A stretch of DNA of 64,000 nucleotides from an uncultured Lachnospiraceae bacterium (GTDB lineage Bacteria > Bacillota > Clostridia > Lachnospirales > Lachnospiraceae), in assembly GCA_947564645.1 (NCBI GenBank), contig CANOCU010000005.1:42427-106426 (forward strand). The letters run 5' to 3'. The first letter of the stretch is position 1. Each line of letters starts with the position of its first letter. The notes beneath the pieces were generated by a model. It did no database searches and was not told the origin of the DNA. It saw only the letters and a program-made list of their open reading frames with translations. The position numbers and the translations under genes are program-made. Positions 5,029-24,117 of the stretch are shown here, piece after piece.

Positions 5029-5110
5029 ACGAATACCCCCCGCTTTCTCGTCTATCTTATCTTATGAAAGCGGGCCCCAAAGTATGTGTATGAAAAGAGA
5101 GGAAGATTTT

Positions 5111-6451
5111 CTAAGATGTCAAAGAATGCCGTTCCCTGCAGATACGAAAAAGCTCTTCCCGTGTGTTGCGCTGCGGTTCATCCAACACGATATCCAACAA
5201 TTCTCTAAGAAGCCGTCCCATCTCCTTCCCGGGCGGCATACCCAGGGCGATCAGATCAGATCCCGTAATCGCCAGATCTTTCAGACTCATACAATCCTGC
5301 CGCCTGCAGATATCTTCATAAAGCTGCTGTATGTACTCTAGATCGGCAAATTTCTCCTGGCGCAGATAATCACTCTGGGCAATAATATCGGCACGTTTTA
5401 CGGCAAACAGCATTCTGAAGATATCTTCTCCCATCCGGCTGACTGCCCGTCGTACCCCGGCAGGCGTTGTCCCCACCTTCTGATCGTGATACTTCACGAT
5501 TCTGGTCACTTTGTCTATCGTTTCATTATCGAATTTCAACCGGCGAAGGATCTGCATTGTCATCCGTGCACCTGTATCTGCATGTCCTCTGTTATGCGTG
5601 ATCCCCTTCTCATCCGTCGTCTGTGTCTGAGGTTTACCGATATCATGAAAAAGCATCCCCAAACGCAGCGTTTTATCCGGTTCCACTGCCTCCATGGCGT
5701 GCAGGATATGTTCTCCCACACTGTAACAGTGATGCGGATTGTTCTGTAAAGTTTCCATGCAAAGATCAAATTCCGGCAGGATCTGCCTCGTTATTCCCAC
5801 TTCATAGGCCATACGCAGATAATCTGGGTGGTCCGACACCACCAGCTTAACAAGCTCCGTCTGGATCCGTTCCGCACTGATCATATTAAGGTTCGGCGCC
5901 AGTTTGCGGATCGCATCCTTCGTATCTTCTGTGATCTGGTAACCAAGCTGTGCGGAGAAGCGGACAGCCCGCAGCATACGCAGCGCATCCTCCGTAAAAC
6001 GCTCCCTGGCATCGCCCACACAACGTATCACACCCTTTTCTATATCCTGGATCCCCCCGAAAATATCCACCAGACCGGTTTCCTCATTATATGCCATGGC
6101 ATTGATCGTGAAATCCCGGCGCTTTAGGTCTTCCTCAAGGCTGACGGTAAACGTTACTTCCCTTGGATGTCTTTTGTCCTCGTATTCTCCGTCGATACGA
6201 TAAGTAGTTACCTCAAAACTCTCTTTGTCCATCATGACCGTCACCGTGCCATGCTTAATCCCGGTATCGATCGTTCTGGCAAAAAGACGTTTCGTCTCCT
6301 CAGGCTTCGCAGAGGTGGTAATGTCCCAGTCATTGGGGATTCTGCCCAGTATGGAATCCCGAATACAGCCACCCACGGCATAGGCTTCATATCCCGCCAT
6401 CGTCAATGTCTCAATGATCTTATGCACTTTATCGGGAAGCTGTATTTTCAT
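5111..6451 (-). CDS. cca: CCA-adding tRNA nucleotidyltransferase with HD domain
   Basis: This 446-residue enzyme adds or repairs the 3' CCA of tRNAs. The N-terminus has the class II nucleotidyltransferase signature GGCIRDSILGRIPNDWD (residues about 27-43), with the catalytic DxD inside this region, followed by RRDFTINAMAY. The neck is followed by an HD phosphohydrolase-type domain (LFHDIGKP near residue 259, HADTG). The start ATG at 6451 has a GGAAAGG SD. This length and HD tail are typical of Clostridia. It follows a small unknown gene by about 40 bases and is probably co-transcribed with it. Confidence 0.95.
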   Translation of the reverse strand: MKIQLPDKVHKIIETLTMAGYEAYAVGGCIRDSILGRIPNDWDITTSAKPEETKRLFARTIDTGIKHGTVTVMMDKESFEVTTYRIDGEYEDKRHPREVTFTVSLEEDLKRRDFTINAMAYNEETGLVDIFGGIQDIEKGVIRCVGDARERFTEDALRMLRAVRFSAQLGYQITEDTKDAIRKLAPNLNMISAERIQTELVKLVVSDHPDYLRMAYEVGITRQILPEFDLCMETLQNNPHHCYSVGEHILHAMEAVEPDKTLRLGMLFHDIGKPQTQTTDEKGITHNRGHADTGARMTMQILRRLKFDNETIDKVTRIVKYHDQKVGTTPAGVRRAVSRMGEDIFRMLFAVKRADIIAQSDYLRQEKFADLEYIQQLYEDICRRQDCMSLKDLAITGSDLIALGMPPGKEMGRLLRELLDIVLDEPQRNTREELFRICRERHSLTS

Positions 6452-6489
6452 GTGGATTCCTTTCCTTCTCTGTTTTGTTATCAGGCATC

Positions 6490-6729
6490 TCAGCCTATAC
6501 CCGGTCCCTGAAATATTTTGTTGACATCTTCCAGATGAAGATCCGGCTCTTCATCCTCCTTTGCCAGAGAACTGACCAGTTTCTCTATCTCTTTGCCGGA
6601 CATTGCGCCGCGGCTCCGCTCAATAAATTCTTCCTTCTCGTCGTCGGTCATATCAACAAACTGATCCATGGCCGCGCGATTTGTCGTGATCGCAAGTCCC
6701 AGATCCAACGGTAAATTTTGATAATCCAT
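6490..6729 (-). CDS. Small acidic hypothetical protein
   Basis: This ORF encodes 79 residues, begins MDYQNLPLDLGLAITTNRAAM and is rich in Glu and Asp, with one helical stretch (MTDDEKEEFIERSRG). I do not recognise a characterised family. A good GGAGGATG SD precedes the ATG at 6729, and the ORF is directly upstream of cca on the same strand, so I accept it as real. It has no membrane segment or signal peptide. The function is unknown. Confidence 0.7.
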   Translation of the reverse strand: MDYQNLPLDLGLAITTNRAAMDQFVDMTDDEKEEFIERSRGAMSGKEIEKLVSSLAKEDEEPDLHLEDVNKIFQGPGIG

Positions 6730-6856
6730 CTTCTTTTCATCCTCCTGTTAAGTTCAATGCCTTATTGCGAAACAGCCATTGCCGTGAAACTTTCTCACGT
6801 TATTTCAACGGTTCCCGCATAGCATGTGCAGGATGAAAAAAATTATACCAGGCCCT

Positions 6857-8788
6857 TTATTTCTCCGGCAGCCAGACTCTCATCTGGTTCAGGCCGCGGT
6901 TTCCCCACGCATAATAGGGAATCAGCGTAATCTGACAGTCCTCCCCTGTCGGCGCTTCGTAGCTGTACAGCTTATCACTTATCGTTTCCCGATACCCTTC
7001 CGCATACAATTCCTGAATCCCGTACAGCTTATCCGGCAGATATTCGCCCACCGTAACCGCACCACCTTTTTTCAAAGAAAGAGACAGAACATCCCCGTCG
7101 TTATCAACACCTTCCGCACAATAGATCAACGGTCCTCTCTGAACGGCTGCTTTTCCGGTATTGGCAGAAACCCTGTTGCACGTATATACCTTTCTGACAA
7201 TCATCTGAAGTTCCACGGTCAGCACGTCATCCGCCCCGAAATCTCTGTGCACAAACGCATAACCGCTCTCCTCCATCTCATATTGTATGGGCTCACCGTT
7301 CAGACAGATCACCGTCTCTGTGCTCCATGCCGGAATACGGACCGCCAAAGGTACTGACATCGTCTCTCCTTCCGGTTCAAACCGGTAAGTGATCTTATTG
7401 CCATAAGGATATGCCGTCTCCAATCTGATCCTGCCGCCGAACTGATCGCTTACATCGAGTATTCCGCCAACAAACAGATTGGAAAACAGCCTGTCGGGCA
7501 ATATATGCCATGCATACTCTGACAAAGAAGACAAAAGCCTTGCCACATTGGGTGGGCAGCATGCACAGGCAAACCATTTCGGCCGCACGGGCAGCGCGTG
7601 CTTATGAGTCTGCGCCTCCCCGGAAATTCCCGGCAGAGCCTCCAGCGGATTCACATAGAAAAATTTCGTCCCATCCAGCTGCATTCCGGCCAGAACGCAA
7701 TTGTACAGCGCACGTTCCATCTCATCCGCATATTTACGGTCTCTTTCCAGATACAGCATTTTATTGGCAAAAAAGATCAAACCGATGGCGGCACAGGTTT
7801 CTGCGTACGCCGTATCGTTAGGCAGATGATAATCCTTCGTAAAAGCCTCGCCCTCATACGCCGAACCGATCGCGCCTGTTACATACATTCTGCTCTGGGT
7901 AATATTATTCCAGAGAGTCTTACAGGCCTCCGCCAGCGTTGTATCCCCCGTCTCCATGGCAGCATCCGCCATGCCTGTGTAGAGATAGACCGCCCGTACT
8001 GCATGTCCGACCGCCTTCTTCTGCATTCTGACCGGCTCTGCGCACTGATTATATTCCGTATCAACAGTCCTGTTCCCCCAGACTGTCCAGTTGTTCCGTT
8101 TCTTTTCCTTGCTATAATAATCGCTGTCAACACCTCTTACATTGATGAAATGAAGCGCCAGTTCCTTATATCTCTCCTCTTTCGTGCAGCGGAACAGACG
8201 CATCAACGCCAGCTCGATCTCCGGATGCCCGGGATACCCTTCTGCGCCTTCTTCGATAAAATGTCTGTAAATATGATCTGCCATACCACACATAATATCC
8301 AGAAGCCTGGATTTACCGGTACACTCTGCATAAGCCACCGCCGCTTCGATCATATGTCCGGCACAGTAAAGTTCATGAGCTTCATGAAGATTTGTCCATC
8401 TCTTGTCCGGCTCTTTTACCGTAAAATAAGTATTCAGATACCCGTCCTCATGCTGTGCGCTGCCGATCAGTTCTATGATCTCGTCACAGCGTTTCTCCAG
8501 TTCCGGATCCGGATTCTGTGCAAGACAGTAAGCCGCGCCTTCCAGCCACTTTGCTACATCACTGTCCTGGAAGACCATACCGTAAAATTCACCTTCACAT
8601 TTACCGGTATGTAATTTCTCCGCTGCCATGCGGAAATTCTCGATACAATGGCTTTTCTCCGCTCCCTCGATCCGGTCATTTAGCGCATTCTCCTGATAAG
8701 GCAGAACCACATCCTTAACCAGCTTCGCATATCTGCCGAAGAAACCGTCTGTCATTTCAAATTTTTTTACCAATTTCAGATCACCCAT
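6857..8788 (-). CDS. GH127-family beta-L-arabinofuranosidase
   Basis: This 643-residue protein has the hallmarks of GH127 (HypBA1 type), which removes beta-L-arabinofuranose with a cysteine nucleophile. Visible motifs are YAETCAAIG, whose Glu and Cys match known Zn ligands, and CACCPPNVARLL, whose Cys residues match the nucleophile and the remaining Zn ligands. There is no signal peptide, so it should act in the cytoplasm on imported arabino-oligosaccharides. An ATG at 8803 is possible, but the GGAGGG at 8796-8801 sits 7 bases before the ATG at 8788, which I take as the start. It lies downstream of the RpiR regulator and could be a separate unit. Confidence 0.9.
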   Translation of the reverse strand: MGDLKLVKKFEMTDGFFGRYAKLVKDVVLPYQENALNDRIEGAEKSHCIENFRMAAEKLHTGKCEGEFYGMVFQDSDVAKWLEGAAYCLAQNPDPELEKRCDEIIELIGSAQHEDGYLNTYFTVKEPDKRWTNLHEAHELYCAGHMIEAAVAYAECTGKSRLLDIMCGMADHIYRHFIEEGAEGYPGHPEIELALMRLFRCTKEERYKELALHFINVRGVDSDYYSKEKKRNNWTVWGNRTVDTEYNQCAEPVRMQKKAVGHAVRAVYLYTGMADAAMETGDTTLAEACKTLWNNITQSRMYVTGAIGSAYEGEAFTKDYHLPNDTAYAETCAAIGLIFFANKMLYLERDRKYADEMERALYNCVLAGMQLDGTKFFYVNPLEALPGISGEAQTHKHALPVRPKWFACACCPPNVARLLSSLSEYAWHILPDRLFSNLFVGGILDVSDQFGGRIRLETAYPYGNKITYRFEPEGETMSVPLAVRIPAWSTETVICLNGEPIQYEMEESGYAFVHRDFGADDVLTVELQMIVRKVYTCNRVSANTGKAAVQRGPLIYCAEGVDNDGDVLSLSLKKGGAVTVGEYLPDKLYGIQELYAEGYRETISDKLYSYEAPTGEDCQITLIPYYAWGNRGLNQMRVWLPEK

Positions 8789-8928
8789 TTTGAAACCCTC
8801 CATTTTGATTAATTATATGTATTATAATTTTATTTCTATGGATATAAGTAAGCCGCTTCGCATAGGAAGGGCATCGTGTTACATTGAATTTGCAGCAGAT
8901 GTCTGTCCATTATTCCGTCACCGTCTTC

Positions 8929-9786
8929 CTATACCAGCTTGTCCGTCACCGCACCGGACGAAATTCGATTATTGTGCACGGATTCCGTCTCATTTCTCTT
9001 ATAATATTCCCGAAAAAGAATATCCACCAGAAACAGCTGCCCAAGCTTCGTACTCATGGAACCTCCGTCGAGAGGGTCCTCGTCAGAGCCGCTTAACAGT
9101 ACCGCATCCGCGTAAGCCGTCAGCGGCGATTTGATAAATCTGGTAATGGCGACGATCCCGGCGCCGGCTTCCTTGGCTAACTGAGCCACATGAATATTGT
9201 CTTTCGTCGCCCCGGAATAAGATATGATCACGATCAGGTCGGAAGCATCCGCCATGGCCGCAGACATGGCCTGCATATGCGGATCCGTGATACAATGTAC
9301 CTTCCTGGTAATGCGCATAAACCGGTTTGTCGCCTCCTGTGCTGTCAGCAGACTGTTCCCGATCCCGAAGAAATAGATATTGCCGGCATTCTGCATCAGA
9401 GAAAGCGTCTTCTCCAACTGCACCTCACTTAGCAGGGCATTGGTCTCCTTCAATGCCGAAATACTGCTGCACATGATCCTCTCGGCGGACTCCAACACCG
9501 AATTATCACTGCTTTCTTCTCTTTCGCTCTTCTCTTCGGCATTCTGTCTCATATGCAGACTGATGGATATCTTCATCTTAAATTCCTGATATCCTTTCAG
9601 CTTCATCGTCCTGCAGAACCGGTGGACACTGGCATCAGCCACCTTACATGCCTCCGAAAGATCCGTAATGGACATGAAGATCACCTGTTCCGGATGCTTC
9701 AGCACGAAATCGGCCACCTTCTTTTCTACTTTTGTAAACTGATTATATGCGGATTGTATCTCCAATAATAAATTCTGCTGCTCCAT
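8929..9786 (-). CDS. MurR/RpiR-family transcriptional regulator (sialic-acid regulator candidate)
   Basis: This protein has about 285 residues. The N-terminus is an RpiR helix-turn-helix (FTKVEKKVADFVLKHPEQV, then ITDLSEACKVADASVHRFCRTM), and the C-terminal half is a SIS sugar-phosphate-binding domain (IYFFGIGNSLLTAQEA and VIIISYSGATKDN). RpiR-type NanR proteins in Firmicutes sense ManNAc-6-P or related sugars and control sialate operons; that role here is inferred from position, as the last gene of the nan operon. I chose the ATG at 9786 because GGAG lies 6 bases before it. An ATG at 9798 is also possible. Confidence 0.85.
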   Translation of the reverse strand: MEQQNLLLEIQSAYNQFTKVEKKVADFVLKHPEQVIFMSITDLSEACKVADASVHRFCRTMKLKGYQEFKMKISISLHMRQNAEEKSEREESSDNSVLESAERIMCSSISALKETNALLSEVQLEKTLSLMQNAGNIYFFGIGNSLLTAQEATNRFMRITRKVHCITDPHMQAMSAAMADASDLIVIISYSGATKDNIHVAQLAKEAGAGIVAITRFIKSPLTAYADAVLLSGSDEDPLDGGSMSTKLGQLFLVDILFREYYKRNETESVHNNRISSGAVTDKLV

Positions 9787-9818
9787 CCTGATCTCCATAC
9801 CCCTTCCGGTCCGGCATA

Positions 9819-10751
9819 CTAAAGCCTGTCATGGCCATCCGGGCCATCCCCGTATCCCAGACAGGACAGGTTTCCCTCCGCTGCCGCTCCGATCCCGTAC
9901 ATGCCGGCCCTGTTTCCAAGCGCCGCCTTCCTGATATCAACATTCCGGAAGGAAGGCATGATCTTACCGTACACCCGCTCCCGTACGCCGCAAAGCGCGT
10001 AATCCTGCTCCATCACACCGCCGCCCAGAATAACCGCCGCCGGGTTAAAGATATGGATCAAGGTCACGATACCGACCGCGGTCTCACCGATCCATTCATC
10101 GACGATCCTTCTCACATTTTCATGTCCCAGACTGGCAAAAACAGCCCTTCCATCCGTAAGCTGTGGACAGACGCGCCGCGCACGTTCCACCAGTGCGGCG
10201 GCTGATGCAGATTTCTCATAACAGCGCTCATACCTGTCTTCCTCTGCCATCTGCCCTCCGTAATACAGCGCCATCGCTCCGAACTCTCCCGCGGAAAAGC
10301 TGCTGCCCCGATACAGCCTGCCGTCCAGAAAGACCGCGCCGCCGATACCGGTCCCAAATGTCATACACAGAAAATCCCGCTGTCCGATACCGGCGCCAAA
10401 TACGGCTTCTCCGATACCGGCAGCATTTACGTCGTTCTCCACCACGACCGGCAGGCCGAAGGCCTCCTCCATCAGCTGTCGTACACGCATCCCCGTATAT
10501 CCCGGCACATTGTCGTTCGCATAGAGGATCCGGCCCTCCACAGGATCCACCTGACCGGTCGTGCTGATACCGATCTTATCGAAAGAATGCCGCTCCTGAT
10601 AACGCCTGACCAGAGCTTCCACCTTCCGCATCAGACAGCTTCCGCCGCGCCCGGCGTCCGATGCACACTCCTGTACATCCGCCAGTTCTCCGTCCTGGTA
10701 GACTGCCGATTTGATGGACGTGCCGCCGATATCCAATACCATGACCTTCAT
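9819..10751 (-). CDS. nanK: ROK-family kinase, probable N-acetylmannosamine kinase
   Basis: This 310-residue ROK sugar kinase starts MKVMVLDIGGTSIKS with the phosphate-binding DxGGT motif. It also has VVENDVNAAGIGEAV (catalytic Asp region), TFGTGIGGAVF and AAVILGGGV. In the sialate pathway NanK phosphorylates ManNAc to ManNAc-6-P for NanE. The usual ROK zinc signature (His in GHM plus a CxCGxxGC cluster) is absent; the aligned segment reads GEFGAMALYYGG. The true start is the ATG at 10751, which overlaps the stop of the preceding gene as ATGA, so translation is coupled. An upstream in-frame extension is rejected. Confidence 0.88.
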   Translation of the reverse strand: MKVMVLDIGGTSIKSAVYQDGELADVQECASDAGRGGSCLMRKVEALVRRYQERHSFDKIGISTTGQVDPVEGRILYANDNVPGYTGMRVRQLMEEAFGLPVVVENDVNAAGIGEAVFGAGIGQRDFLCMTFGTGIGGAVFLDGRLYRGSSFSAGEFGAMALYYGGQMAEEDRYERCYEKSASAAALVERARRVCPQLTDGRAVFASLGHENVRRIVDEWIGETAVGIVTLIHIFNPAAVILGGGVMEQDYALCGVRERVYGKIMPSFRNVDIRKAALGNRAGMYGIGAAAEGNLSCLGYGDGPDGHDRL

Positions 10752-11209
10752 AGCGCCACCTGCCCGGCAATCTTTATGACCGCTTTCCTCACCGCTTTGC
10801 TGTCGGAACCGTCCGGCGCGATACCCGGCATATGATATTCCCCTGCCCGGTACAGCGCGAAATATCCTCTCTTCAACGTACACTCGGCCACAGAGAGACA
10901 TTGTACCAATCCGATGTCCTGCCGGTATTCCTGAATCTGCGCTGTCACTTCCCCGCCAAGAAAGATCCGCTCCTGTCCTTCTATCCCGATCTGCAGATCC
11001 ATGTACTGCCTGTGATACTCATACTGTCCCTGCGCGATCTTTTTTGTGTACGCATCCGATACCTGCATGTAGACCTGTTCGCCGTCTATCCGGGTTCTTC
11101 CCACAGGCAGGCTGCTTAGATCCGTTTGCATCAGAAATGCGATCGCCTTATCCAGATTTGCATGTATTCCCTTGTAATTTGGTAAATTTTCTATTCTATC
11201 AAATATCAT
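10748..11209 (-). CDS. nanQ: YhcH/YjgK/YiaL family protein (NanQ-like anomerase candidate)
   Basis: This 153-residue cupin-like protein of the DUF386 family begins MIFDRIENLPNYKGIHANLDKA. It has the conserved HRQYMDLQIGIEGQE and AGEYHMPGIAPDG stretches, with His and Glu residues expected to bind metal. In E. coli the relative YhcH/NanQ opens or interconverts sialic acid anomers. Its position between nanE and nanK supports a sialate role here. It starts 7 bases after the nanE stop and overlaps nanK by 4 bases. The assignment to the family is strong; the exact reaction is inferred. Confidence 0.87.
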   Translation of the reverse strand: MIFDRIENLPNYKGIHANLDKAIAFLMQTDLSSLPVGRTRIDGEQVYMQVSDAYTKKIAQGQYEYHRQYMDLQIGIEGQERIFLGGEVTAQIQEYRQDIGLVQCLSVAECTLKRGYFALYRAGEYHMPGIAPDGSDSKAVRKAVIKIAGQVAL

Positions 11210-11216
11210 AATATAC

Positions 11217-11906
11217 TCATCCTAAATTTTCTATACTTTTTACGTAATATTTTGTGATCAGCTGCGGCCTGGTGATCGCCGCACCGATCACCGCACAGAA
11301 GGCGCCGCACCTGAATGTCTGCCGCAGATCTTCTCCGCTCCAGATGCCGCCCTCCGCAATGACCGGCCTTACGGTTTTCTCCCGCAGTTTCTTGATCAGC
11401 TCCAGGTTCGGCAGTTTTATATGTTCCGTATACGGCGTATAGCCGGCCAATGTTGTCCCGATCACATCAAATCCGATCTCTTCCGCATGAATCCCTTCCT
11501 CCAGCGTCGAGCAGTCAGCCATAAAAAGCTGCTGCGGATAGTCTGCGCGGATCTCCTTAAAGAAATCGTCCAGACTGATATTTCCCGGTCTTTTCCTTCC
11601 GGTAGCATCCATGGCAATGATCTCTGCCCCGGCAGCAACCAGATCGTCCACTTCTTTTCTGGTCGGTGTGATAAACACTTCCGTATCCGGATACTGTACC
11701 TTCACGATGCCGATCAGAGGAAGCTTGACATTCTTCTTGATCTCACGGATATCTTCCACAGAGTTGGCCCGAATCCCGACGGCTCCTCCCTCCTGCGCCG
11801 CAACCGCCATCCGCGCCATGATAAAGGAACTGTGCAGCGGCTCATCCTCCAACGCCTGGCAGGATACGATGAGTCCCCCTTTAATCTTCTGTAAAACAGG
11901 ATTCAT
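11217..11906 (-). CDS. nanE: N-acetylmannosamine-6-phosphate 2-epimerase
   Basis: This 229-residue TIM-barrel enzyme converts ManNAc-6-P to GlcNAc-6-P, the last committed step before amino-sugar catabolism. Motifs are the N-terminal GGLIVSCQALEDEPL, a central GIVKVQYPD, DATGRKRPG, TTLAGYTPYT and VIAEGGIWSGEDLRQTFRCGA. The length is standard. The ATG at 11906 has a GGGAG SD. It is 3 bases from the nanA stop, so it is in the same operon and probably translationally coupled. Confidence 0.95.
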   Translation of the reverse strand: MNPVLQKIKGGLIVSCQALEDEPLHSSFIMARMAVAAQEGGAVGIRANSVEDIREIKKNVKLPLIGIVKVQYPDTEVFITPTRKEVDDLVAAGAEIIAMDATGRKRPGNISLDDFFKEIRADYPQQLFMADCSTLEEGIHAEEIGFDVIGTTLAGYTPYTEHIKLPNLELIKKLREKTVRPVIAEGGIWSGEDLRQTFRCGAFCAVIGAAITRPQLITKYYVKSIENLG

Positions 11907-11909
11907 ATT

Positions 11910-12839
11910 CTACTCCCTTCTTTTCCTACAGTATCTGGAAAGCGCTTCTTCGATCTGCGTTACAATGTGGTCGATCGTTTCCATGTCCTGCGCGATGATC
12001 TGCGGCAGAGGTTCCCGCACGCAGCCGATATCCACCCCTTCTCTTCTCCGCAGGATCTCTTTCATCACCGCATAGAGATTTCCGTGACACGCACACATCC
12101 TGTCAATAATGCGGTCAACCGCCGTCTGGATCTCCAAAGCCCTCTGGCAGTCCCCTTCTTTCAACAGTGCATTCATCCTCAGAAACAACTCCGGCATGAC
12201 CCCGTAAGTTCCGCCAATGCCGCCGTCCGCCCCCATAATGCGTCCGGCTATAAACTGTTCGTCTACCCCGTTAAAGACAATAAAATCACTGCCGCCGGTC
12301 ATTTTCTGGATCTGAATGTCCTGAACGGCCATACTGCTGTTCTTCACGCCGACCACTCTTTTGTTGCACAGCATGGTACGAAGCAGATCCTGTGTCAGGG
12401 CCGTTCCCGCCAGCTGCGGAATGTTATAGATGATAAAATCCGTATCCGGCGCCGCATCGGAAATGGTATTCCAGTACGCGGCAATGGCGTGTTCCGGCAG
12501 TTTAAAATAGATCGGCGGAATGGACGCGACGGCATCTGCCCCTGCGGCCTGCGCAAAAGCGGCAAGCCGGCAGCTGTCCCTCGTGTTATTACATGCCACA
12601 TGCACGATCACCGGAATCTGACCGGCCGTCTCCTCCATCACCCACTCTATGGTCTTCTTTCTCTCCTCCACACTCTGATAGATACATTCTCCCGAAGATC
12701 CGCCCACATAGATCCCGTCGATCCCTTTTCCCATCAGATGTCTTACAAACCGCTTTGTGCGCTCTTTTGACACTTCGCCGTTTTTGTCATAACAGGCATA
12801 GAGAGCCGGGATGATTCCTTCGTATTTTCTGTTTTTCAT
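11910..12839 (-). CDS. nanA: N-acetylneuraminate lyase
   Basis: This 309-residue DapA/NAL-family aldolase cleaves Neu5Ac to ManNAc and pyruvate. It has GGSSGECIYQS (the GxxGE carboxylate-binding motif), the catalytic Tyr in IIYNIPQLAGTAL and the Schiff-base Lys in VVGVKNSS. NAL and dihydrodipicolinate synthase are close relatives; the nan operon context decides for nanA. The start ATG at 12839 has GAGGAGA 8 bases upstream and overlaps the stop of the preceding lectin-fold gene by 4 bases (ATGA). The coupling ties that unusual gene firmly to the operon. Confidence 0.94.
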   Translation of the reverse strand: MKNRKYEGIIPALYACYDKNGEVSKERTKRFVRHLMGKGIDGIYVGGSSGECIYQSVEERKKTIEWVMEETAGQIPVIVHVACNNTRDSCRLAAFAQAAGADAVASIPPIYFKLPEHAIAAYWNTISDAAPDTDFIIYNIPQLAGTALTQDLLRTMLCNKRVVGVKNSSMAVQDIQIQKMTGGSDFIVFNGVDEQFIAGRIMGADGGIGGTYGVMPELFLRMNALLKEGDCQRALEIQTAVDRIIDRMCACHGNLYAVMKEILRRREGVDIGCVREPLPQIIAQDMETIDHIVTQIEEALSRYCRKRRE

Positions 12840-13957
12840 ATGCTGTCTCCTCTTAAGTTTACATAGGCGCTGCGAAATCCCACCACGTTACCGCCGTGAT
12901 AATATCTGGGATTATAGAAATGCAGCGCAAACTGTCCTGCCCTGTCGAAACTGTCGAACTTCCCGCCTCTGACCGCAATTCTCTCCCCGTAGTTACGCAC
13001 CACGAAGACGCCGTCCTTCCCGGAATTGTTCTCAGGATAAAGCGCCAGCGCCTTAAGTAACAGCGGGATCCTGATTCCTTTCGCCGCGCGAAGTTCGCTG
13101 AAACGGCAGTCATAATAACCGAAATTGCCGGTGCTGTCTTTTTCGGCAAAAGCATAATTGTCGATCTTGATATCATACTGCGGAACCCCCAGCAGATGAT
13201 CTTCCTCCCTATGGTCGCCCGGCGATACGGAAGAAAGCTTCAATGTGTTCTTCTCCCCATGCGCGGAATACTCTCCTTCCTCGGTGATTGCGTGCCACAA
13301 ATGACTGTCGATCCTGTGGATCTGTCTGTCATGCACTGCCGCCGATCCCTCCCGGATGACCTGCACTTCTCCGTTGAGCAGACGCAGTCCGCTCACCCAC
13401 TCCCACACGTTCCCGGTCATATCCGCGATCCCCGAGACATTATGGTTGTGGAACCAGGTCGCAGGGCCAGTCCCCGTCGCGGTGCGGTTTACCAGATCCC
13501 GGTAGCGGGAAGATGGAACGCCCTTTTCATGGGACGCATAGTAGTTCTCCCCATTGTTTGTGTTGCCCCCGGGGATTGTGCCGTTCTTCTTACTCCAGAG
13601 ACTGATGGCCGCCCACATGGCATTTGTCAGAAGATGCCAGCCCTCCCCCTTATCCAGGCAATAATCAATGGCCTGTTCATAATCAAAATATACCTTTGGG
13701 TCCTGTGCCGGAAGGGAATAGGCTCTGCCGTTTTTCACGATATTGATATATTTGCTGACATAGATCACATCCTTCTCCACACCGTTCACGATCCAGGCCG
13801 GATGCGGAATCCTCGGTGCATCCTCAAGCAGATCCGACAGATACATCTTCGGCATTGCCACCATGATACTGGGGAGTCCCACATCATCCACGATCACCGT
13901 GTTGCTCCCACCGCTGAGCGCCTCGATCGCCAGGCGCAGATCGCTATAATCCTGCAT
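12836..13957 (-). CDS. Formylglycine-enzyme/C-type-lectin-fold protein resembling a DGR variable target
   Basis: This 373-residue protein has no signal peptide. The N-terminal third (LSGGSNTVIVDDVGLPSIMV, then MPKMYLSDLL and YVSKYINIVKNGRAYSLP) resembles phage-type or DGR target proteins of gut Clostridia. The SUMF1/FGE-like C-type lectin core follows (GEGWHLLTNAMWAAISLW, GNVWEWVSGLRLLNGE). The C-terminus runs RGGKFDSFDRAGQ to VVGFRSAYV, the layout of a DGR variable region. It carries no obvious formylglycine-enzyme active-site Cys pair, so I expect a binding rather than a catalytic role. The start is the ATG at 13957 with GGAGG 12 bases upstream. It overlaps nanA and follows a 54-aa ORF. Its function in sialate use is unknown. 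Confidence 0.8.
   Translation of the reverse strand: MQDYSDLRLAIEALSGGSNTVIVDDVGLPSIMVAMPKMYLSDLLEDAPRIPHPAWIVNGVEKDVIYVSKYINIVKNGRAYSLPAQDPKVYFDYEQAIDYCLDKGEGWHLLTNAMWAAISLWSKKNGTIPGGNTNNGENYYASHEKGVPSSRYRDLVNRTATGTGPATWFHNHNVSGIADMTGNVWEWVSGLRLLNGEVQVIREGSAAVHDRQIHRIDSHLWHAITEEGEYSAHGEKNTLKLSSVSPGDHREEDHLLGVPQYDIKIDNYAFAEKDSTGNFGYYDCRFSELRAAKGIRIPLLLKALALYPENNSGKDGVFVVRNYGERIAVRGGKFDSFDRAGQFALHFYNPRYYHGGNVVGFRSAYVNLRGDSI
12887..12958 (-). other. Candidate DGR variable region (VR) with NNY codon signature
   Basis: This covers the codons of the C-terminal segments FDSFD, HFYN and YYHGGN in the lectin-fold protein. All fifteen of these residues are encoded by codons ending in C or T, and every one can be reached from AAC or AAT by changing only the first two bases. 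That is the footprint expected of adenine-specific DGR mutagenesis of AAY template codons. Interspersed framework codons (AGG GCA GGA CAG, CCC AGA) do not show it. No template repeat is visible in the window. Confidence 0.55.
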
Positions 13958-13961
13958 GATC

Positions 13962-14126
13962 TTATCTTGCCTCCTTTTCCATCGCTTCCAAGGCCCTGCG
14001 GATGCCTTCCGCCGCCCCTTCCGCATATTCTCTAATCTGGGCAGGTGCATTCTCCGTGTAGTGATAGGTCTCAAGCACTGCCGCTTCTCTCTGCTTTCTC
14101 TCTTCCGATTTACTGATGATATACAT
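13962..14126 (-). CDS. Small 54-residue ORF in the sialic-acid operon
   Basis: I read this ORF directly from the minus strand: it begins MYIISKSEERKQREAAVLETY and ends in EAMEKEAR followed by TAA. It is charged, probably all-helical, and has no signal or membrane segment. A GAAAGGA SD precedes the ATG at 14126. Its first 17 bases overlap the end of the sialidase gene, and its stop lies 4 bases before the lectin-fold start, so it fills the gap exactly and is likely translated by coupling. I do not recognise the family. It could be a partner or chaperone of the next gene. Confidence 0.6.
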   Translation of the reverse strand: MYIISKSEERKQREAAVLETYHYTENAPAQIREYAEGAAEGIRRALEAMEKEAR

Positions 14127-15528
14127 GATCCGTCTTATCCTTTCTTCTTTCTTGAAAATCTCCGCTCAGTGACAGGAGCCGGAAACGGATCTCCTCCACG
14201 ACCGGCGTCCCGTTATCCACCTCATAGAGAAGGCCCACGGTATCCTCATCCAGCTGTGCCAGACAGGAATACCCAAAACCGCCCTCCGTGACTCTGCATA
14301 CGCTGTCCGCCGTCAGACCGCCGTCTCTGCTGTGCAGCACGGTCCCGTTGATCCTCTCTTTCTTATGCCACGGCCCGGAGAGCAGGATCTGATCGTCTTC
14401 CTTCTGCAGACCGACCGCACTCAGCATACAGACCGGATTGCGCAGATACATCAGCGGCGCCGGCGCCGTCCAGGTGATTCCCCCGTCCGTGCTGTCCGCA
14501 TAGCAGATCACTTCCTCCGGCATCGTATTTCTGATAAAAGCCCGCACCGTGCCGTCTCGCAGTTCTACCAGCTGCATTTCCTGCAGGGAATCCTCCCGGT
14601 CCATGGCCAGCCGGCTCCCTTGCGCGCACCGCACATCATTGGGCGAAGCGCCCATATGCCAGGACGTGCCCCGGTCGTCACTGTAGATCACCGCCGCAGA
14701 CAACAGGCCGTACGCATTGGAATAATAGACCGGGATCAGGTATCTTCCCTGACAGTCACCCCTGCTCTTCACGATCCCTCTGCCAGGTCCCGGCCCGATA
14801 AAGCGCATCCACGGCGCTTTCACCTGGCCGGTCACATCCACCGGCCCGTGCCAGGTCTCTCCCTCGTCGTCGCTGTAGACATACTGCAGATAACAGGTCG
14901 GAAATTCCCGCAGCGCGCCGCCTGGCAGCCGGATATTTCCACACTTCCTGCCGTCTTTCGTAATCCCGCCGTCCCTGTCTGTCAGATAGAAGCATGTACC
15001 GTTCTTCCCGCCTGCTTCCGATACCGGCCACACTTTATGAAACCCGTCCGCATCGTCTGAAACGTCCCCTGACACCGTATCCTGACCGCCATATTCTGTC
15101 GTCGCCTGTTCTTCCATATAATAGAGGTTGTCTTCCCTGTCATACAGAAGCTTTCTTCCGCTCTCGTCAAAGCCTGTGCCCATATTGGCATTCTGCAGGC
15201 CGATCCCTGCCGGCGAGTAACAATAGAACAGGAAGATCCTCTCTGTCTGTTCGTCGTACAACATGCAGGGATCGATCGCCGCACAGCCCCCTCTGCCCTT
15301 ACCCTGCATTTCCAGTGCCATGATCATACCGCTCCAGCTCCTGCCCTTGTCGAAACTTCTGCGGATAACCTTGTCGATCCGGTTGGGATTGTCGCATCCC
15401 TCCTGCACCCTTGCATCCACTGCCGCGATCAGCGTTCCCTTCTTCGTATACAGAAGCGAAGGGATACGAAAACTCCTCACGCCGCTGTAACCGGCATAAA
15501 ATAATTTTCCATCCATATCATTCTTCAT
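14110..15528 (-). CDS. GH33-type exo-sialidase, apparently cytoplasmic
   Basis: This protein has about 472 residues and a six-bladed neuraminidase fold. It shows the FRIP arginine motif (RSFRIPSLL) near the N-terminus, several Asp-boxes (SFDKGRSW, SDDEGETW, SDDRGTSW, STDGGITW), an EMQLVEL glutamate and a C-terminal GFGYSCLAQL segment expected to hold the nucleophilic Tyr. It should release terminal sialic acid. There is no signal peptide, LPXTG motif or CBM, so it probably acts inside the cell on imported sialylated glycans. The start at 15528 is preferred; 15597 (longer) and 15516 (shorter) are alternatives. It lies between the ABC permeases and nanA. Confidence 0.88.
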   Translation of the reverse strand: MKNDMDGKLFYAGYSGVRSFRIPSLLYTKKGTLIAAVDARVQEGCDNPNRIDKVIRRSFDKGRSWSGMIMALEMQGKGRGGCAAIDPCMLYDEQTERIFLFYCYSPAGIGLQNANMGTGFDESGRKLLYDREDNLYYMEEQATTEYGGQDTVSGDVSDDADGFHKVWPVSEAGGKNGTCFYLTDRDGGITKDGRKCGNIRLPGGALREFPTCYLQYVYSDDEGETWHGPVDVTGQVKAPWMRFIGPGPGRGIVKSRGDCQGRYLIPVYYSNAYGLLSAAVIYSDDRGTSWHMGASPNDVRCAQGSRLAMDREDSLQEMQLVELRDGTVRAFIRNTMPEEVICYADSTDGGITWTAPAPLMYLRNPVCMLSAVGLQKEDDQILLSGPWHKKERINGTVLHSRDGGLTADSVCRVTEGGFGYSCLAQLDEDTVGLLYEVDNGTPVVEEIRFRLLSLSGDFQERRKDKTDHVYHQ

Positions 15529-15606
15529 TCCTTCCCGTAACTTTCCTTTGTTACGATCTACAGCTTCCGGCCGCCCACGATAACGGCATCTACGCATTCC
15601 ATGCCG

Positions 15607-16482
15607 CTACCCTTTGACCGATCCCATGATCACACCCTTCACAAAATATTTCTGTAAAAAGGGATAGATGAGCAGCATCGGCAGAGAAGTGAGCACGATC
15701 ACCGCACACTTGATGGACATACCGGGCGGACGCTGCATTCCGCCCACCAATGCGCTCTGCAGGGCATAGACATCCGCGCTCTGCACATATTTTCTCACGA
15801 TCAGCTGTAACGGCCACAGATCCGTGCGCTTATTCAGATAGATCGCCGCGTCAAACCAGCTGTTCCAGTGCGCCACCGCGTAATAAATACTGATCGTTGC
15901 CAATGCCGGCTTCGACAGCGGAAGCACGATCATGCGGAAGATCCGTCCCTGGGATGCCCCGTCAATGGTGGCCGCTTCCTTAAGCTCCTCCGGAATCGTC
16001 ACAAAGAAATTCCGCAGCACGAACACATTCCATACATTGACCAGGTTCGGCAGCAGCATACACCAGATCGTATCCGTAAGTTTCAGATTGGATACGATAA
16101 TGTAATTCGGTATCAGACCGCCGTTAAATATCATGGTGATGAACAGAAGGGTAATAATCAGATTCCTGCCCGGCAGATCCTTCTTCGAGATCCCGTAGGC
16201 CAGCATGGCGCTGACCGAAATATTCATCACCGTGCCTGCCAGCGTCCTGAATACGGAAACCCCATAGGCATCCCAGATCTCTTTACCGGCCAGCAGGATC
16301 CTGTAGGTGTCCGGCGTGGGATGCCGCGGTAGAAATACCATGCCTCTCGCCGCATACTCTCCGGGCGTCAGCAGCGAGGATCCGACCACTAGCAGGAACG
16401 GCAGCAGAAAAGCCGCCGACAAAACCGCCATAATGATCACGATCACGACGCTCACCATTTTATCTCCAAAAGACCATTTCAT
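15607..16482 (-). CDS. Carbohydrate ABC transporter permease (YtcP/CUT1 type)
   Basis: This 291-residue inner-membrane permease has about six hydrophobic segments and the EAA loop EELKEAATIDGASQGRIFRMIVLPLSKPAL that contacts the ATPase. The C-terminal KYFVKGVIMGSVKG is typical of YtcP-like oligosaccharide permeases. It pairs with the LplB-type permease immediately upstream (30-base gap). No ATPase gene is in the operon; in Firmicutes a shared MsmX-type ATPase usually serves such systems. Sialylated glycan or sialic acid import is inferred from context. Confidence 0.9.
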   Translation of the reverse strand: MKWSFGDKMVSVVIVIIMAVLSAAFLLPFLLVVGSSLLTPGEYAARGMVFLPRHPTPDTYRILLAGKEIWDAYGVSVFRTLAGTVMNISVSAMLAYGISKKDLPGRNLIITLLFITMIFNGGLIPNYIIVSNLKLTDTIWCMLLPNLVNVWNVFVLRNFFVTIPEELKEAATIDGASQGRIFRMIVLPLSKPALATISIYYAVAHWNSWFDAAIYLNKRTDLWPLQLIVRKYVQSADVYALQSALVGGMQRPPGMSIKCAVIVLTSLPMLLIYPFLQKYFVKGVIMGSVKG

Positions 16483-16512
16483 TATATTGTCACACTCCTT
16501 TCTCTGCCGCTT

Positions 16513-17418
16513 TTACCACAATCCTTCCCCGCTTACCTTCTTGCTGATGAAGTTCGTGATCAGAACCATGATCGCCGCCAGTACGGACTTAAATAATCCC
16601 ACCGCCGTTGAAAACGAATAGTTCGCCAGCTGCAGGCCTTCCCGGTATACATAGGTATCAATGATATCCGCCACATCATAGACCGCCGGCGAATACAGCA
16701 TTAAGATCTGTTCGAAGCCCGCCTCCAGGATGCCGCCCATCCGCAGGATCAGCGTAATGGCTATCACACTGGAGATCCCCGGCAGCGTGATATGCCAGAT
16801 CTGCTTCAGCTTTCCCGCCCCGTCCATGGCCGCCGCCTCATATAGCGCAGGATCGATCGACATGATCGCCGCCGAATAGATAATGCTGTCCCATCCCGCG
16901 TATTTCCAGACATCCGAAACGATGATGATCTTTAAGAAGCTGCCCGACTGGCTTAAGAAAGAAACCGCCGGACGGCCCAGGGAAGTCAGTACGTTATTGA
17001 CGGCGCCGTCTGTGGAAAAGATGGCAACAATGATACCGCTCACGATCACCCAGGACATAAAATTAGGCATATAGCTGACCGTCTGTGCAAATTTCTTAAA
17101 ATATTTATTCTTCAGGTCATTGAGCATGATCGCGATCAGGATCGGGAACGGAAAGCCCAGAAGAAATTTAGCGAAACTGATAAACAGGGTATTGCGCATG
17201 ATCTCCCCGAAATAATAAGACCCCATAAATTTTCTGAAATGCTTCAATCCCACCCACTTGCTCGTAAAGATCCCGTCAAATCCCATACTGGGCTGATACT
17301 GCTTAAAGGCGATCGTCAGACCCGCAAGGGGCAGATACTTAAACAGAATGAGATAGAGCACTCCCGGCAGGATCAGCAGATAAAAGAAGCCGTATTTTCT
17401 TAAATTTTTACGAATCAA
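16513..17418 (-). CDS. Carbohydrate ABC transporter permease (LplB type)
   Basis: This 301-residue permease begins at IRKNLRKYGFFYLLILPG and has the EAA loop ALYEAAAMDGAGKLKQIWHITLPGI. The longest in-frame ORF opens at 17457, but the AAAGGAGGAG at about 17423-17431 points to a TTG start at 17418, 7 bases downstream. LplB-type permeases work with long (about 550 aa) binding proteins and YtcP partners, exactly as arranged here. It lies about 60 bases downstream of the binding-protein gene. Confidence 0.9.
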   Translation of the reverse strand: MIRKNLRKYGFFYLLILPGVLYLILFKYLPLAGLTIAFKQYQPSMGFDGIFTSKWVGLKHFRKFMGSYYFGEIMRNTLFISFAKFLLGFPFPILIAIMLNDLKNKYFKKFAQTVSYMPNFMSWVIVSGIIVAIFSTDGAVNNVLTSLGRPAVSFLSQSGSFLKIIIVSDVWKYAGWDSIIYSAAIMSIDPALYEAAAMDGAGKLKQIWHITLPGISSVIAITLILRMGGILEAGFEQILMLYSPAVYDVADIIDTYVYREGLQLANYSFSTAVGLFKSVLAAIMVLITNFISKKVSGEGLW

Positions 17419-17481
17419 ATCTTCTCCTCCTTTGCATACTACAGGCGGACGGATCATGTCCGCCCGCCTGTGCAGTACATT

Positions 17482-19113
17482 TTACTGATTCTCATTATAA
17501 AATGTTGTGTATGCCTCCATGTAAGCGTCGAGCCCCGCCTTCTGCAGATCCTCATTGACGAAAGTATCCCACTCGGACAGATCTCTCTGCCCTGTTACGA
17601 ACTTAATGACATTCTCGCTGATCATCTTGTCCACGTCGCTGACATTCGGATTGATCGCATCGATCGCCGCCGCATTCCAGAATACCGATTTGTCGAAGGA
17701 CTGTTTCGTCGTATCATAACGATACTGATCTTCCATCATAAATTTAGAATCCATCCTCAGCTCTCCGGTCTCATTATCTACCTGCCCGATCTGACGGAGG
17801 TTATAATTATTCGGATAGATGTACAATTCTCCGCCGAAGGATTCCGTATTCAGGATCTTATATAAGCCTTTGTCCTTATCCTGCCATTCCCATCCTTCTT
17901 CCTCGATCCCGTACATCATGGTAAGGAAATTAGAGGAATCGGATACCACCCAGTTAAGAAGCTTCATACATGCTTCCGGATGCTCGGACTTGGCCGTTAT
18001 CATCATGCCGCTGTTGGAAGCCTTCTCCCGGGTTTCCATAAACCCTTTCGGTCCCTGGATGCCGTCCGCAAAAACATAGTCGGCCTCGGGATTTAAGCCC
18101 TGCAGGTTCGCCAGGTTATTTGCCGTCACACCGTAAGAACCTATGATCACGCCCACGCGGTCCGCCATAAACAGATCCTCGAAATCAGACCATGTGAGTG
18201 TGAAGGAATCCGGATGGATATAGCCTTTCTCATACCAGCCGCCGACCTGTTCCAGACAGTCCTTGAATCCCGGCTGCAATGCCGCGGGCTTGATCAGGTT
18301 ATCCTGTTCATCCATCCAATACCCATATCCGTACTCTGTAAATCCGGCTGTAATACCATAGTCCAATCCACCTTCCGTGACGATCAGAAGCGGGATCGTC
18401 TGTCCGCCGCCCGCAGGATCGGCCTCCTTAAACGCCGCCAGAACTTCTTCCAGCTCCTCAAAAGTCGTCGGCATGGCTAGACCCAGCTGATCCAGCCAGT
18501 CCTTTCTGATATAAGTCGGATTCGAGGTCGTCTCCAGTGCACGCGGCAGCGCCCAGATATTCCCGTCCGCATCCGTCATCGGATCCATAAGCCATTCCAG
18601 CTCTCCGCTGAAGGCGGCCTTAATGTCCTGTCCGTACTCATCCAGAAGATCGTTGAGCGGAATGATCTGTCCATTCTCCGCCAGTCTGCCCCAACTTTCC
18701 CAGGTAGGATTCATCATGATGATGTCCAACTGTTCTCCTGCATCCGCGATCATCAGATTCAGCTTCTCCTGCTCCGATCCGCTGGGCAGCAGCACCGGAA
18801 CCGGCTTTACACCGCACTGTTCGATCACATAATTCTGAACCTTCTCCATCGCTTCCTCCGTGGAAGCAACCTTCCCTGCGCTCCCGATCCAGGGCATGAA
18901 TCCCTCGAAGTAGATCGTCGGCACATCCGCCGACTCATCCGCCGTTCCTTCTGCTTTCCCTTCCTCCTGTTCTCCTGCCGCACTCTCTTCGCTCTTTACA
19001 GCATTCGTTGTCCCTGTACTGTCATTTCCCGTATTGGACGGCTGGCTTCCACAGCCTGCCAATAGCCCCAGGACCAGCGCGCCGGTCACTGCAATACATT
19101 CCAGTTTCTTCAT
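17482..19113 (-). CDS. Extracellular solute-binding lipoprotein of the sialic-acid operon importer
   Basis: This 543-residue binding protein of ABC family 1 (LplA-like) begins MKKLECIAVTGALVLGLL and has the lipobox LLAGC, so it is lipid-anchored outside the membrane. An acidic, Ser/Thr/Glu-rich linker (about residues 25-65) precedes the mature domain. The length suits oligosaccharide rather than monosaccharide binders. Of three clustered ATGs, the one at 19113 has GGAG 7 bases upstream. It is first in the operon, and its ligand is inferred to be a sialylated glycan or sialic acid. Confidence 0.88.
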   Translation of the reverse strand: MKKLECIAVTGALVLGLLAGCGSQPSNTGNDSTGTTNAVKSEESAAGEQEEGKAEGTADESADVPTIYFEGFMPWIGSAGKVASTEEAMEKVQNYVIEQCGVKPVPVLLPSGSEQEKLNLMIADAGEQLDIIMMNPTWESWGRLAENGQIIPLNDLLDEYGQDIKAAFSGELEWLMDPMTDADGNIWALPRALETTSNPTYIRKDWLDQLGLAMPTTFEELEEVLAAFKEADPAGGGQTIPLLIVTEGGLDYGITAGFTEYGYGYWMDEQDNLIKPAALQPGFKDCLEQVGGWYEKGYIHPDSFTLTWSDFEDLFMADRVGVIIGSYGVTANNLANLQGLNPEADYVFADGIQGPKGFMETREKASNSGMMITAKSEHPEACMKLLNWVVSDSSNFLTMMYGIEEEGWEWQDKDKGLYKILNTESFGGELYIYPNNYNLRQIGQVDNETGELRMDSKFMMEDQYRYDTTKQSFDKSVFWNAAAIDAINPNVSDVDKMISENVIKFVTGQRDLSEWDTFVNEDLQKAGLDAYMEAYTTFYNENQ

Positions 19114-19152
19114 ACTCATTCTCCTTTGCATACTGATTACTGATTACTATTT

Positions 19153-19272
19153 CCACCTCACGTTCGGTGGATTCATTATATCTGATATGTATATTTTTTT
19201 TAATATATTTATTAATAAAAATATTTTTTCCAATAATTTGAAAATTTTACCTTCGATATACAAGATGTATAT
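19153..19272 (-). promoter_or_regulatory. Probable control region of the sialic-acid operon
   Basis: On the minus strand a TATAAT (19175-19180) lies about 60 bases upstream of the binding-protein start; its -35 is poor. A CCACC-N8-GGTGG inverted repeat (19153-19170) follows the -10, and a perfect palindrome ATATAC-N5-GTATAT (19256-19272) lies upstream. Both are candidate operators, for example for the RpiR regulator or a catabolite regulator, but neither matches a site I can name. The rest of this 290-base gap is A+T-rich. Confidence 0.4.
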
Positions 19273-19325
19273 GCAAATATAATTTTGTCTCTTGCATGAG
19301 CAAGCATTGAAACAAAAAAAGACAT

Positions 19326-19378
19326 AAAAAAACGACCCGAAAACACCATCCGTAATAGTGCTTTCGAAATCGTTTTTT
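19326..19378 (-). terminator. Terminator downstream of the iron-type alcohol dehydrogenase
   Basis: On the minus strand AAAAAACGA-type arms with a GAAAGCAC/GTGTTTTC inner stem close an 11-base loop and end in a run of seven T. It lies about 20 bases after the stop codon at 19401. Confidence 0.75.
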
Positions 19379-19400
19379 GAACACCAATTAATCGCTTATC

Positions 19401-20579
19401 TTATAACGCCATCCGGTAAATCTCCAGCATATCCTCCTCGTATAGCTTTCTGGCCGATCCCTTACAACCGCCTGCTGCCAGACTGCACATATGCGCCATT
19501 GTCTTTAACTGCTCCTGCGTGGGCGTGACGCCAAGTTCACGCATATTGGTCGGCATATCTATCTTCCGGTAGAAATCCTCCATGGCTCCGATTCCTTTAA
19601 GCGCGATCTCTTCCTCGCTGCCATCCTCCGCAACACCCATCACGTTTCTGGCAAATTTACAGAATCTCGGCATACAATCCCGCAGCACATATCTGGCCCA
19701 GCTTCCCCAGACCGCCGCCAGTCCGGCACCGTGTGCCACATCAAACATACCGCCAATCTCATGCTCAAGTCCATGGGTCGCAAAATCTCCGCCATCGTTG
19801 CCGCATCCCGTCAGACCGTTGTGAGAAAGACTGCTGGCCCACAGTATCTCCGCCCGGGCATCATAATTGTCCGGCTCCTCCTTCAAGATCAGGGCATTAC
19901 GAATAACCGTACGCATCAGCGCTTCCGCGATCGCATCCGTCAGCTCCATGTTGCCGCCGTTTGTAAAATACCGCTCCATCGTATGCATCAGAATATCGGT
20001 ACATCCGCACGCCGTCTGGTATGCCGGCAATGTCATCGTCAATTCCGGGTTCATCACCGCAAAGACAGGACGGCAGATGTCATTGTTATATCCCCGCTTG
20101 ACCATACCCTCATCCTTAGTGATCACGCTGCTGTTGCTCATCTCGCTTCCTGCCGCCGCAATCGTCAGCACCACGCCGACAGGCATGCAAGCCGAAGCCT
20201 GACGGGTATGCTCGTAGAAATCCCAGACATCCCCCTCATTCGTCATACCATATCCGATCGCCTTACAGGAATCGATGACACTGCCGCCGCCCACTGCCAG
20301 AAGGAAGTCTGCCTTTTCTTGCTTACAAAGCTCTATTCCCTTATAGACAAGGGACAGTCTCGGATTGGGAACCACACCGCCAAGCTCCACATAAGAAATT
20401 CCCTCAGCATCCAAAGATGCCCGAATCCGTCCAAGCAGTCCGGAACGCTCGGCGCTGCCACCGCCATAATGGATAAGAACTTTACTACAGCCGGTTTCCT
20501 TAACAAGTCTTCCGACCTGCTGCTCCGTGTCCTTTCCAAACACTACTCTGGTCGGCGTATGATAATTAAAGTTAAACAT
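19401..20579 (-). CDS. Iron-containing alcohol dehydrogenase (BdhA/YqhD-like)
   Basis: This 392-residue group III dehydrogenase has the NAD(P)-binding GGGSVIDSCKAIGYG motif and the C-terminal metal site HGLEHEIGGMFDVAHGAGLA, plus an upstream Asp/His (HTMERYF), which together hold Fe or Zn. It should interconvert an aldehyde and an alcohol, such as butanal/butanol, using NAD(P)H. The SD is AGGAAGG before the ATG at 20579. It ends in a strong terminator and starts just after the sugar acetyltransferase stop, so the two may be co-transcribed. The substrate is not predictable. Confidence 0.9.
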   Translation of the reverse strand: MFNFNYHTPTRVVFGKDTEQQVGRLVKETGCSKVLIHYGGGSAERSGLLGRIRASLDAEGISYVELGGVVPNPRLSLVYKGIELCKQEKADFLLAVGGGSVIDSCKAIGYGMTNEGDVWDFYEHTRQASACMPVGVVLTIAAAGSEMSNSSVITKDEGMVKRGYNNDICRPVFAVMNPELTMTLPAYQTACGCTDILMHTMERYFTNGGNMELTDAIAEALMRTVIRNALILKEEPDNYDARAEILWASSLSHNGLTGCGNDGGDFATHGLEHEIGGMFDVAHGAGLAAVWGSWARYVLRDCMPRFCKFARNVMGVAEDGSEEEIALKGIGAMEDFYRKIDMPTNMRELGVTPTQEQLKTMAHMCSLAAGGCKGSARKLYEEDMLEIYRMAL

Positions 20580-20601
20580 ACATTATACCTTCCTCTCTCA
20601 C

Positions 20602-21186: not shown

Positions 21187-21224
21187 GTGAATACTCATCC
21201 CCTTTCATGGAAAATCTCCTCGTG

Positions 21225-22628: not shown

Positions 22629-22651
22629 AGTCATACCCTCCTGTTATTTTT

Positions 22652-23848: not shown

Positions 23849-24117
23849 CCTTATTCCCCTTCTCTGTAAAATTATTTTTGAAAACTTTCCGGTACTCTAT
23901 TACCCGCATCCGTTCCAATTACGAATATTATAATATAAATACATGTCTGTAGCAATGTCTCCCAACGTCCATTTTTACATTCAAACTTCTTTATAATGCG
24001 CTACCCTAATGCATTATTTTGAACAATACTTTCCACCGGCATAGCTTTTATGCCGCGCTTATGCTACTATTTTTGTATGGTAAACCTATAAATAAGCTCA
24101 GAAAGCCGGATCCTCCC

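Follow-up and report, generated by a model that had tools for sequence, protein, structure and literature searches.

A DGR target homologue lies within a sialate operon

The window (the whole 64-kb stretch of DNA analysed here) contains a minus-strand operon in which the genes for a solute-binding protein, two permeases, a sialidase, a 54-aa ORF, a DGR variable-protein homologue (VP), nanA, nanE, a YhcH-type protein, a ROK kinase and an RpiR regulator follow one another in that order (Table 1), and sequence matches place nanA, nanE, the kinase, the regulator and the importer all together at this locus. An importer, a sialidase, NanA, NanE, a YhcH-type protein, a ROK kinase and an RpiR regulator are features that the locus has in common with bacterial nan operons; it differs from them in that a phage-type pair, the 54-aa ORF and VP, is inserted between the sialidase gene and nanA. 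An earlier note on this DNA had described the VP gene as overlapping nanA by 4 bp, following a sialidase gene and being translationally tied to sialate use. The overlap (12836-12839) and the upstream sialidase are both there, and the operonic arrangement holds in the two close orthologues as well, since the order sialidase, 54-aa ORF, VP, nanA is conserved at L037 (in genome G051) and L038 (in genome G023). Apart from the pair, nothing in the operon was recognised as a phage gene, and an Rfam scan of window positions 5000-25000 returned no match. Just downstream of the operon, a minus-strand ORF of 648 aa (6857-8803) matches an aceric acid hydrolase model (E 2.1e-123, below the cut-off).

Table 1. 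Features of the nan operon and of the VP gene in the window.
Feature	Position	Strand	Remark
RpiR-family regulator	8929..9798	-	
ROK-family kinase ORF, nanK-like	9819..10901	-	
YhcH/YjgK/YiaL family, sialate anomerase type	10748..11209	-	
nanE, N-acetylmannosamine-6-phosphate epimerase	11217..11906	-	
nanA, N-acetylneuraminate lyase family	11910..12839	-	Match below NCBIfam equivalog cut-offs
VP, 373 aa	12836..13957	-	DGR variable-protein homologue, FGE-type C-type-lectin family, phrog_2889
VR-like stretch, codons 326-371	12845..12982	-	Protein identical in three nan-operon species
Codons 335-357	12887..12955	-	Eight columns AAY in 7/7 related TRs
54-aa ORF, small prophage protein homologue	13962..14126	-	Ends 4 bases before VP start; overlaps sialidase ORF end
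Sialidase, BNR repeats	14110..15597	-	No N-terminal hydrophobic stretch seen
ABC importer, two permeases and solute-binding protein	15607..19131	-	

VP is homologous to the TaqVP-type/phrog_2889 family over nearly its full length. It aligns through residues 6-366 with PDB 5VF4 (phmmer, E 9e-58), the structure of TaqVP from Thermus aquaticus, where TaqVP is the variable protein of a DGR in a prophage, and it matches phrog_2889 in PHROGs (E 1e-109) and FGE-sulfatase in Pfam (E 6.5e-10). These matches bear out the claim that VP is a DGR-target-like protein, and the RGG...AGQFAL...GFRSAYV framework on which that claim had been built is indeed present at the C-terminus. Passages of the TaqVP paper (PMC6328139) describe a C-terminal VR, an FGE-type C-type-lectin fold and nine solvent-exposed variable residues; VP has the C-terminal framework and the FGE-type C-type-lectin family in common with TaqVP and, by homology to 5VF4, would adopt a C-type-lectin fold. 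According to the same passages the TaqVP DGR has avd, TR and RT, whereas for VP none of these was found and the corresponding stretch is fixed (see below).

Given the Pfam match, and because enzymes also use this fold, VP could be an FGE-type enzyme that acts on a sialate-pathway substrate or protein. The catalytic triad of FGE is Ser333, Cys336 and Cys341 in these passages (PMC6328139), whereas VP has cysteines at positions 100 and 284 only; with no cysteine counterpart to the triad, we reject FGE activity itself. The missing cysteines leave room for another chemistry; we regard an enzyme of the FGE type as very unlikely. By hydropathy, none of VP, the 54-aa protein and the sialidase has an N-terminal signal resembling that of the solute-binding protein.

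The host genome (G000; 4.15 Mb in 140 contigs, 91% complete) contains a single copy of VP. Six of 77 genomes of the genus have any VP homologue, and three, including that of the window, have a close one (G051, 93% identical; G023, 89%). A contig scan gave three loci, namely L037, L038 and a third, L039, at 78% identity. nanA matches at E 1e-60 were present in 10 of the 77 genomes, and at seven of these ten loci neither a sialidase nor a VP or 54-aa homologue was found in the 15-17 kb around nanA. Other nan loci of the genus (L098-L104) are arranged in two or more ways; their importers have low identity to the importer of the window, and no sialidase homologue is present. At L039 the gene pair sits behind a NUDIX-domain gene, and its 19.4 kb yielded no nan or importer gene of the window, all of which were found in the L038 control. 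The tie to sialate use is therefore not general, and the copy at L039 favours the view that the module is portable over that of a sialate-specific invention.

No RT or matching template repeat was found for VP

The earlier note had seen no RT gene or template repeat in 64 kb and had proposed that VP is a remote or orphan target. Our scan of the window likewise found no RT motif and no TR-like repeat, with a best TR score of 17 compared to 90-105 for seven real TR/VR pairs. The same is true genome-wide: the host genome has no RVT_1 match and, besides the VR-like stretch itself, its DNA contains nothing that matches this stretch at more than 31 bits, which is well below the 115-164 bits scored by the seven real TRs of related loci (blastn). 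When the G023 stretch was compared with G051 and G023, matches other than the two orthologues reached only 32.8 bits. As far as the host genome shows, VP is an orphan. Because the host genome is incomplete, absence of an RT and a TR is not absolute, and the frozen sequence described below is the stronger argument.

RVT_1 matches occur in five of the seven homologue-bearing genomes, the two without any being G000 and G051, and RTs adjoin homologous targets in G042 and G059. At the G042 locus (L072) the RT lies beside the target, yet no TR was detected. G023 (6.1 Mb) has ten RVT_1 matches (L020, L024, L027, L029 and L031-L036), and despite these it contains no TR-like match for VP. Four homologues of an outlying clade (L080 and L082-L084) also have no local TR in the stretches examined, so that a missing local TR is not telling by itself. 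Their C-termini are typically DGR-like and they may be remote targets of DGRs located elsewhere in the respective genomes; G259 and G143 carry a DGR of the same family.

Codons of the VR-like stretch compared with related TRs

Seven of the nine related loci tested have a TR (L072 and L079 gave none and are outside the seven; L040 also has one). In the seven, 92 of 95 TR/VR mismatches fall at TR adenines, a kind of mismatch for which the scan itself sets no penalty. When the TRs are aligned to VP, every one of the seven has AAY at eight columns (D335, S336, H346, Y348, N349, Y353, G355 and N357), and all eight are NNY codons in VP; six of the eight residues are encoded by NNY codons only, so the pattern is largely automatic. 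Two positions are not NNY in VP though AAY in TRs, namely R339 (AGG in VP; AAY in 6/7 TRs) and K333 (AAG; 3/7), and conversely no TR of the seven has AAY at F334, F337, D338, F347, P350, Y352 or H354, and two have it at G356. Residues 333-357 have 17 NNY codons out of 25, compared to 201 of 373 for the gene as a whole. The earlier note had counted fifteen NNY codons at presumed variable positions; as we reconstruct the count, fifteen can be picked from these 17, but only eight correspond to AAY in every TR. The residues at the eight columns (D, S, H, Y, N, Y, G and N) could have been produced by a DGR, which fits, and does not prove, descent of VP from a diversified variant.

The protein sequence of the VR-like stretch is identical in three nan-operon species

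The earlier note suggested that VP may diversify a binding surface, and proposed a comparison across strains for clustering of substitutions at the NNY codons. Comparison between species gave the reverse: residues 321-371 are identical in all three nan-operon species. Over codons 326-371 the window differs from G051 by 10 synonymous and no non-synonymous codon changes and from G023 by 21 and none, whereas the synonymous/non-synonymous counts for the rest of VP (without codons 372-373) are 85/25 and 113/39, respectively. By Fisher test, the stretch differs from the rest for G023 (p 0.0045) and not significantly for G051 (p 0.12), with the caveat that its end at codon 371 was chosen post hoc (codon 372 differs in both orthologues and codon 373 in G023). 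NG86 estimates for the stretch are a dN of 0 with a dS of 0.44 (G051) and 2.69 (G023). Nor are NNY codons kept in every homologue, as L039 has AGG at position 337. Together with the lack of RVT_1 matches in G000 and G051, these are in substance the observations that the earlier note had named as refuting its reading.

Could VP be a remote target in which an RT and TR at another site of the genome continue to generate diversity? Its homology to DGR targets and the NNY codons at all eight fully AAY columns would be expected in that case, the host genome is incomplete, and G023 has its ten RVT_1 matches. However, active diversification is difficult to reconcile with a stretch that has accumulated silent changes only, with the lack of RVT_1 matches in G000 and G051 and of a TR-like match, and with AGG at R339. 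Moreover, as excerpted, Roux et al. (PMC8144416) report pN/pS above 1 within populations in over 80% of the VR loci that contain SNVs, and VP shows the opposite pattern, although our replacement counts are between-species comparisons. We therefore reject active diversification and consider a remote target highly improbable.

Whole-gene omega values for VP are 0.058 (G051) and 0.045 (G023). Those of nanA (0.079 and 0.102) and the sialidase gene (0.100 and 0.155) are higher, whereas VP is not lower than the second permease gene (0.027 and 0.030) or, for G051, the genes for the solute-binding protein (0.038) and RpiR (0.051). Since other operon genes are equally or more conserved, VP is not exceptional. 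These values, together with VP reading frames that are intact in four genomes, refute by their selection pattern the idea that VP is a functionless, decaying prophage remnant, for which the lack of any further recognised phage gene in the operon might have spoken; we find that idea barely credible. The L039 stretch has diverged about as much as the rest of its gene (dN 0.148, compared to 0.141 for the whole gene), and within codons 333-359 it differs from the window by F334H, F337R, N357S, V358A and V359I.

The gene pair is homologous to prophage tail DGR modules

The 54-aa ORF had escaped the earlier note. It is conserved, with copies at L037, L038 and L039 that are 85%, 78% and 74% identical, and within the genus the genomes that carry it are precisely the 3 of 77 with a close VP. 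A comparison of a 54-aa alignment with viral contigs gave 113 stretches that fitted the pattern, none of which was confirmed; the phage copies were picked up by a profile run on the ORFs that precede the targets. Of 86 phage and prophage loci, 51 encode the small protein upstream of the DGR target, with its start about 500 to 580 bases ahead. A profile made solely of phage and prophage copies puts the four 54-aa ORFs at the top of the 1295 ORFs of the window and L037-L039 (E 2.2e-12 to 2.9e-10), with the window copy at E 9.6e-11 and the next-best ORF at 0.17. In PHROGs, the window protein matches phrog_24202 at E 2.3e-4 and a phage copy does so at 1.6e-17. Among 397 genomes of the family, five match the 54-aa profile at E <=0.01, including the window's own; outside the host genome the strongest is that of G395 (E 1.1e-5), located in a prophage and ahead of its DGR target, and the other three (E 0.006-0.008) lie inside longer frames and were taken as chance.

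Prophages with this layout encode, in order, proteins of ~164 aa, ~55 aa and 116 aa (the last phrog_8734) and then the DGR target, followed by a further small ORF, TR and RT, and at L069 Baseplate_J and Tail_P2_I genes lie further upstream of the DGR module. Both genes of the window pair are homologous to genes of such modules in Lachnospiraceae and in phages of the gut (L069 and L077 among them; phrog_2889 and phrog_24202), and their order and strand are conserved. The best identity to VP in a search of the family is 49%. Unlike in these modules, the 116-aa gene, the accessory gene, TR, RT and tail genes are all missing beside the pair, which lies in a nan operon. Homology of the 54-aa protein and of VP, taken together, indicates that the pair most likely came from a prophage tail DGR module. 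A further possibility, that VP belongs to a contractile tail whose genes lie at another locus, was rejected: G023 has one Baseplate_J match, whereas G000 and G051 have none, which makes such a use of VP unlikely in these two genomes.

Because both proteins are tail-module homologues, the pair might instead act as a phage-derived decoy, in which a host-made tail lectin and its small partner would hinder related phages in assembling their tails or in adsorbing. Competition between a fixed tail protein and the phage copies is conceivable, and the presence of the pair outside a nan operon at L039 agrees with such a role. Tight coupling to nan genes in three species is, however, unexpected for a defence gene, and conservation of the binding stretch suits a fixed ligand better than an arms race. 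We consider a decoy unlikely.

Among the best 80 of 262 viral relatives of VP, 62 have an adenine-type TR and 64 have a TR or an RT motif, although one RT motif among the 64 (L161) is on the other strand and doubtful. Sixteen of the best 80 have neither, and 13 of those 16 have at most 1,080 bases of downstream DNA; in the 58 of the best 80 with at least 2 kb downstream, a TR was found in 55. The other three of the 16, phage contigs with VP homologues, have no TR or RT motif in 6.0 kb (L191), 1.9 kb (L137) and 2.6 kb (L138) of downstream DNA. Relatives on plasmids amount to 12 records. G267 has two homologues without a local TR (L076:5881-7209 and L044, about 820-2080, both on the minus strand), one located between two periplasmic-binding-protein genes and the other beside a tRNA cluster, that possibly represent a second RT-less cellular lineage.

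In a tree of 91 rows built without the VR, the window, L037, L038 and L039 form one clade (support 100, stem 1.01) that is placed inside the TR-bearing family, with support of 83 for the fork above and 89 for the sister group. L081 and nine viral sequences were left out, the latter comprising five that are cut short (L122, L142, L146, L161 and L166), three with a broken or odd end (L162, L195 and L198) and one with a stop (L153). Transfer in the reverse direction would mean that a cellular lectin family had members taken up by phages as DGR targets and that the nan protein was never diversified. RT-less members in cellular settings (L044 and L076) and a nesting support of only 83 leave room for this, but the 54-aa gene is standard in phage tail modules and nearly all viral relatives with sufficient downstream DNA have a TR. 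A cellular origin is therefore clearly improbable in our judgement, and transfer would have run from phage to cell.

Discussion

Our data suggest that a prophage tail-module pair was captured by a nan operon, that its diversifying parts were lost and one binding variant was fixed, and that the pair now has a cytoplasmic role with a fixed ligand; we give this account as a whole a probability of roughly 0.6. The ancestral module would have encoded a small protein followed by a DGR-diversified, receptor-binding lectin. A two-gene piece, the 54-aa ORF and VP, would have entered a Lachnospiraceae nan operon, with the 116-aa middle gene, the accessory gene, TR and RT being lost, and a single binding-site variant would have been fixed and then maintained by purifying selection. 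The result would be a non-secreted C-type-lectin protein for a fixed ligand that serves sialoglycan catabolism. Prophage origin and freezing of VP are very probable; the limits on the origin account are the support of 83 at the fork, the long stem and a host genome that is 91% complete. What VP does is a more tentative matter: together with its 54-aa partner, cytoplasmic VP may serve as a lectin or scaffold whose ligand is fixed, either for sialoglycans after their import or at the sialidase/NanA step.

Target genes left without RT and TR have been described in Treponema denticola, and these remnants, as presented in passages of PMC4891356, resemble VP in being DGR target homologues without core DGR parts. 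In comparison with what those passages describe, the case reported here involves a catabolic operon, three species, a phage partner gene and a frozen VR that was measured. Our searches of open-licence PubMed Central brought up no paper on a protein of the DGR family whose variable region is frozen and whose gene lies in an operon for sialate or other catabolism.

It is possible, though doubtful, that a DGR served here as the source of a ready-made binding protein, with the frozen pair forming a cytoplasmic module of the nan system for sialoglycan recognition or enzyme scaffolding, and with the L039 copy, whose pocket differs at five positions within codons 333-359, put to a further use on a different ligand. 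The system is small and testable, as it consists of a single gene pair, a single pathway and a single predicted pocket. If our account is correct, hypermutated phage lectins can supply their hosts with fixed binding proteins.
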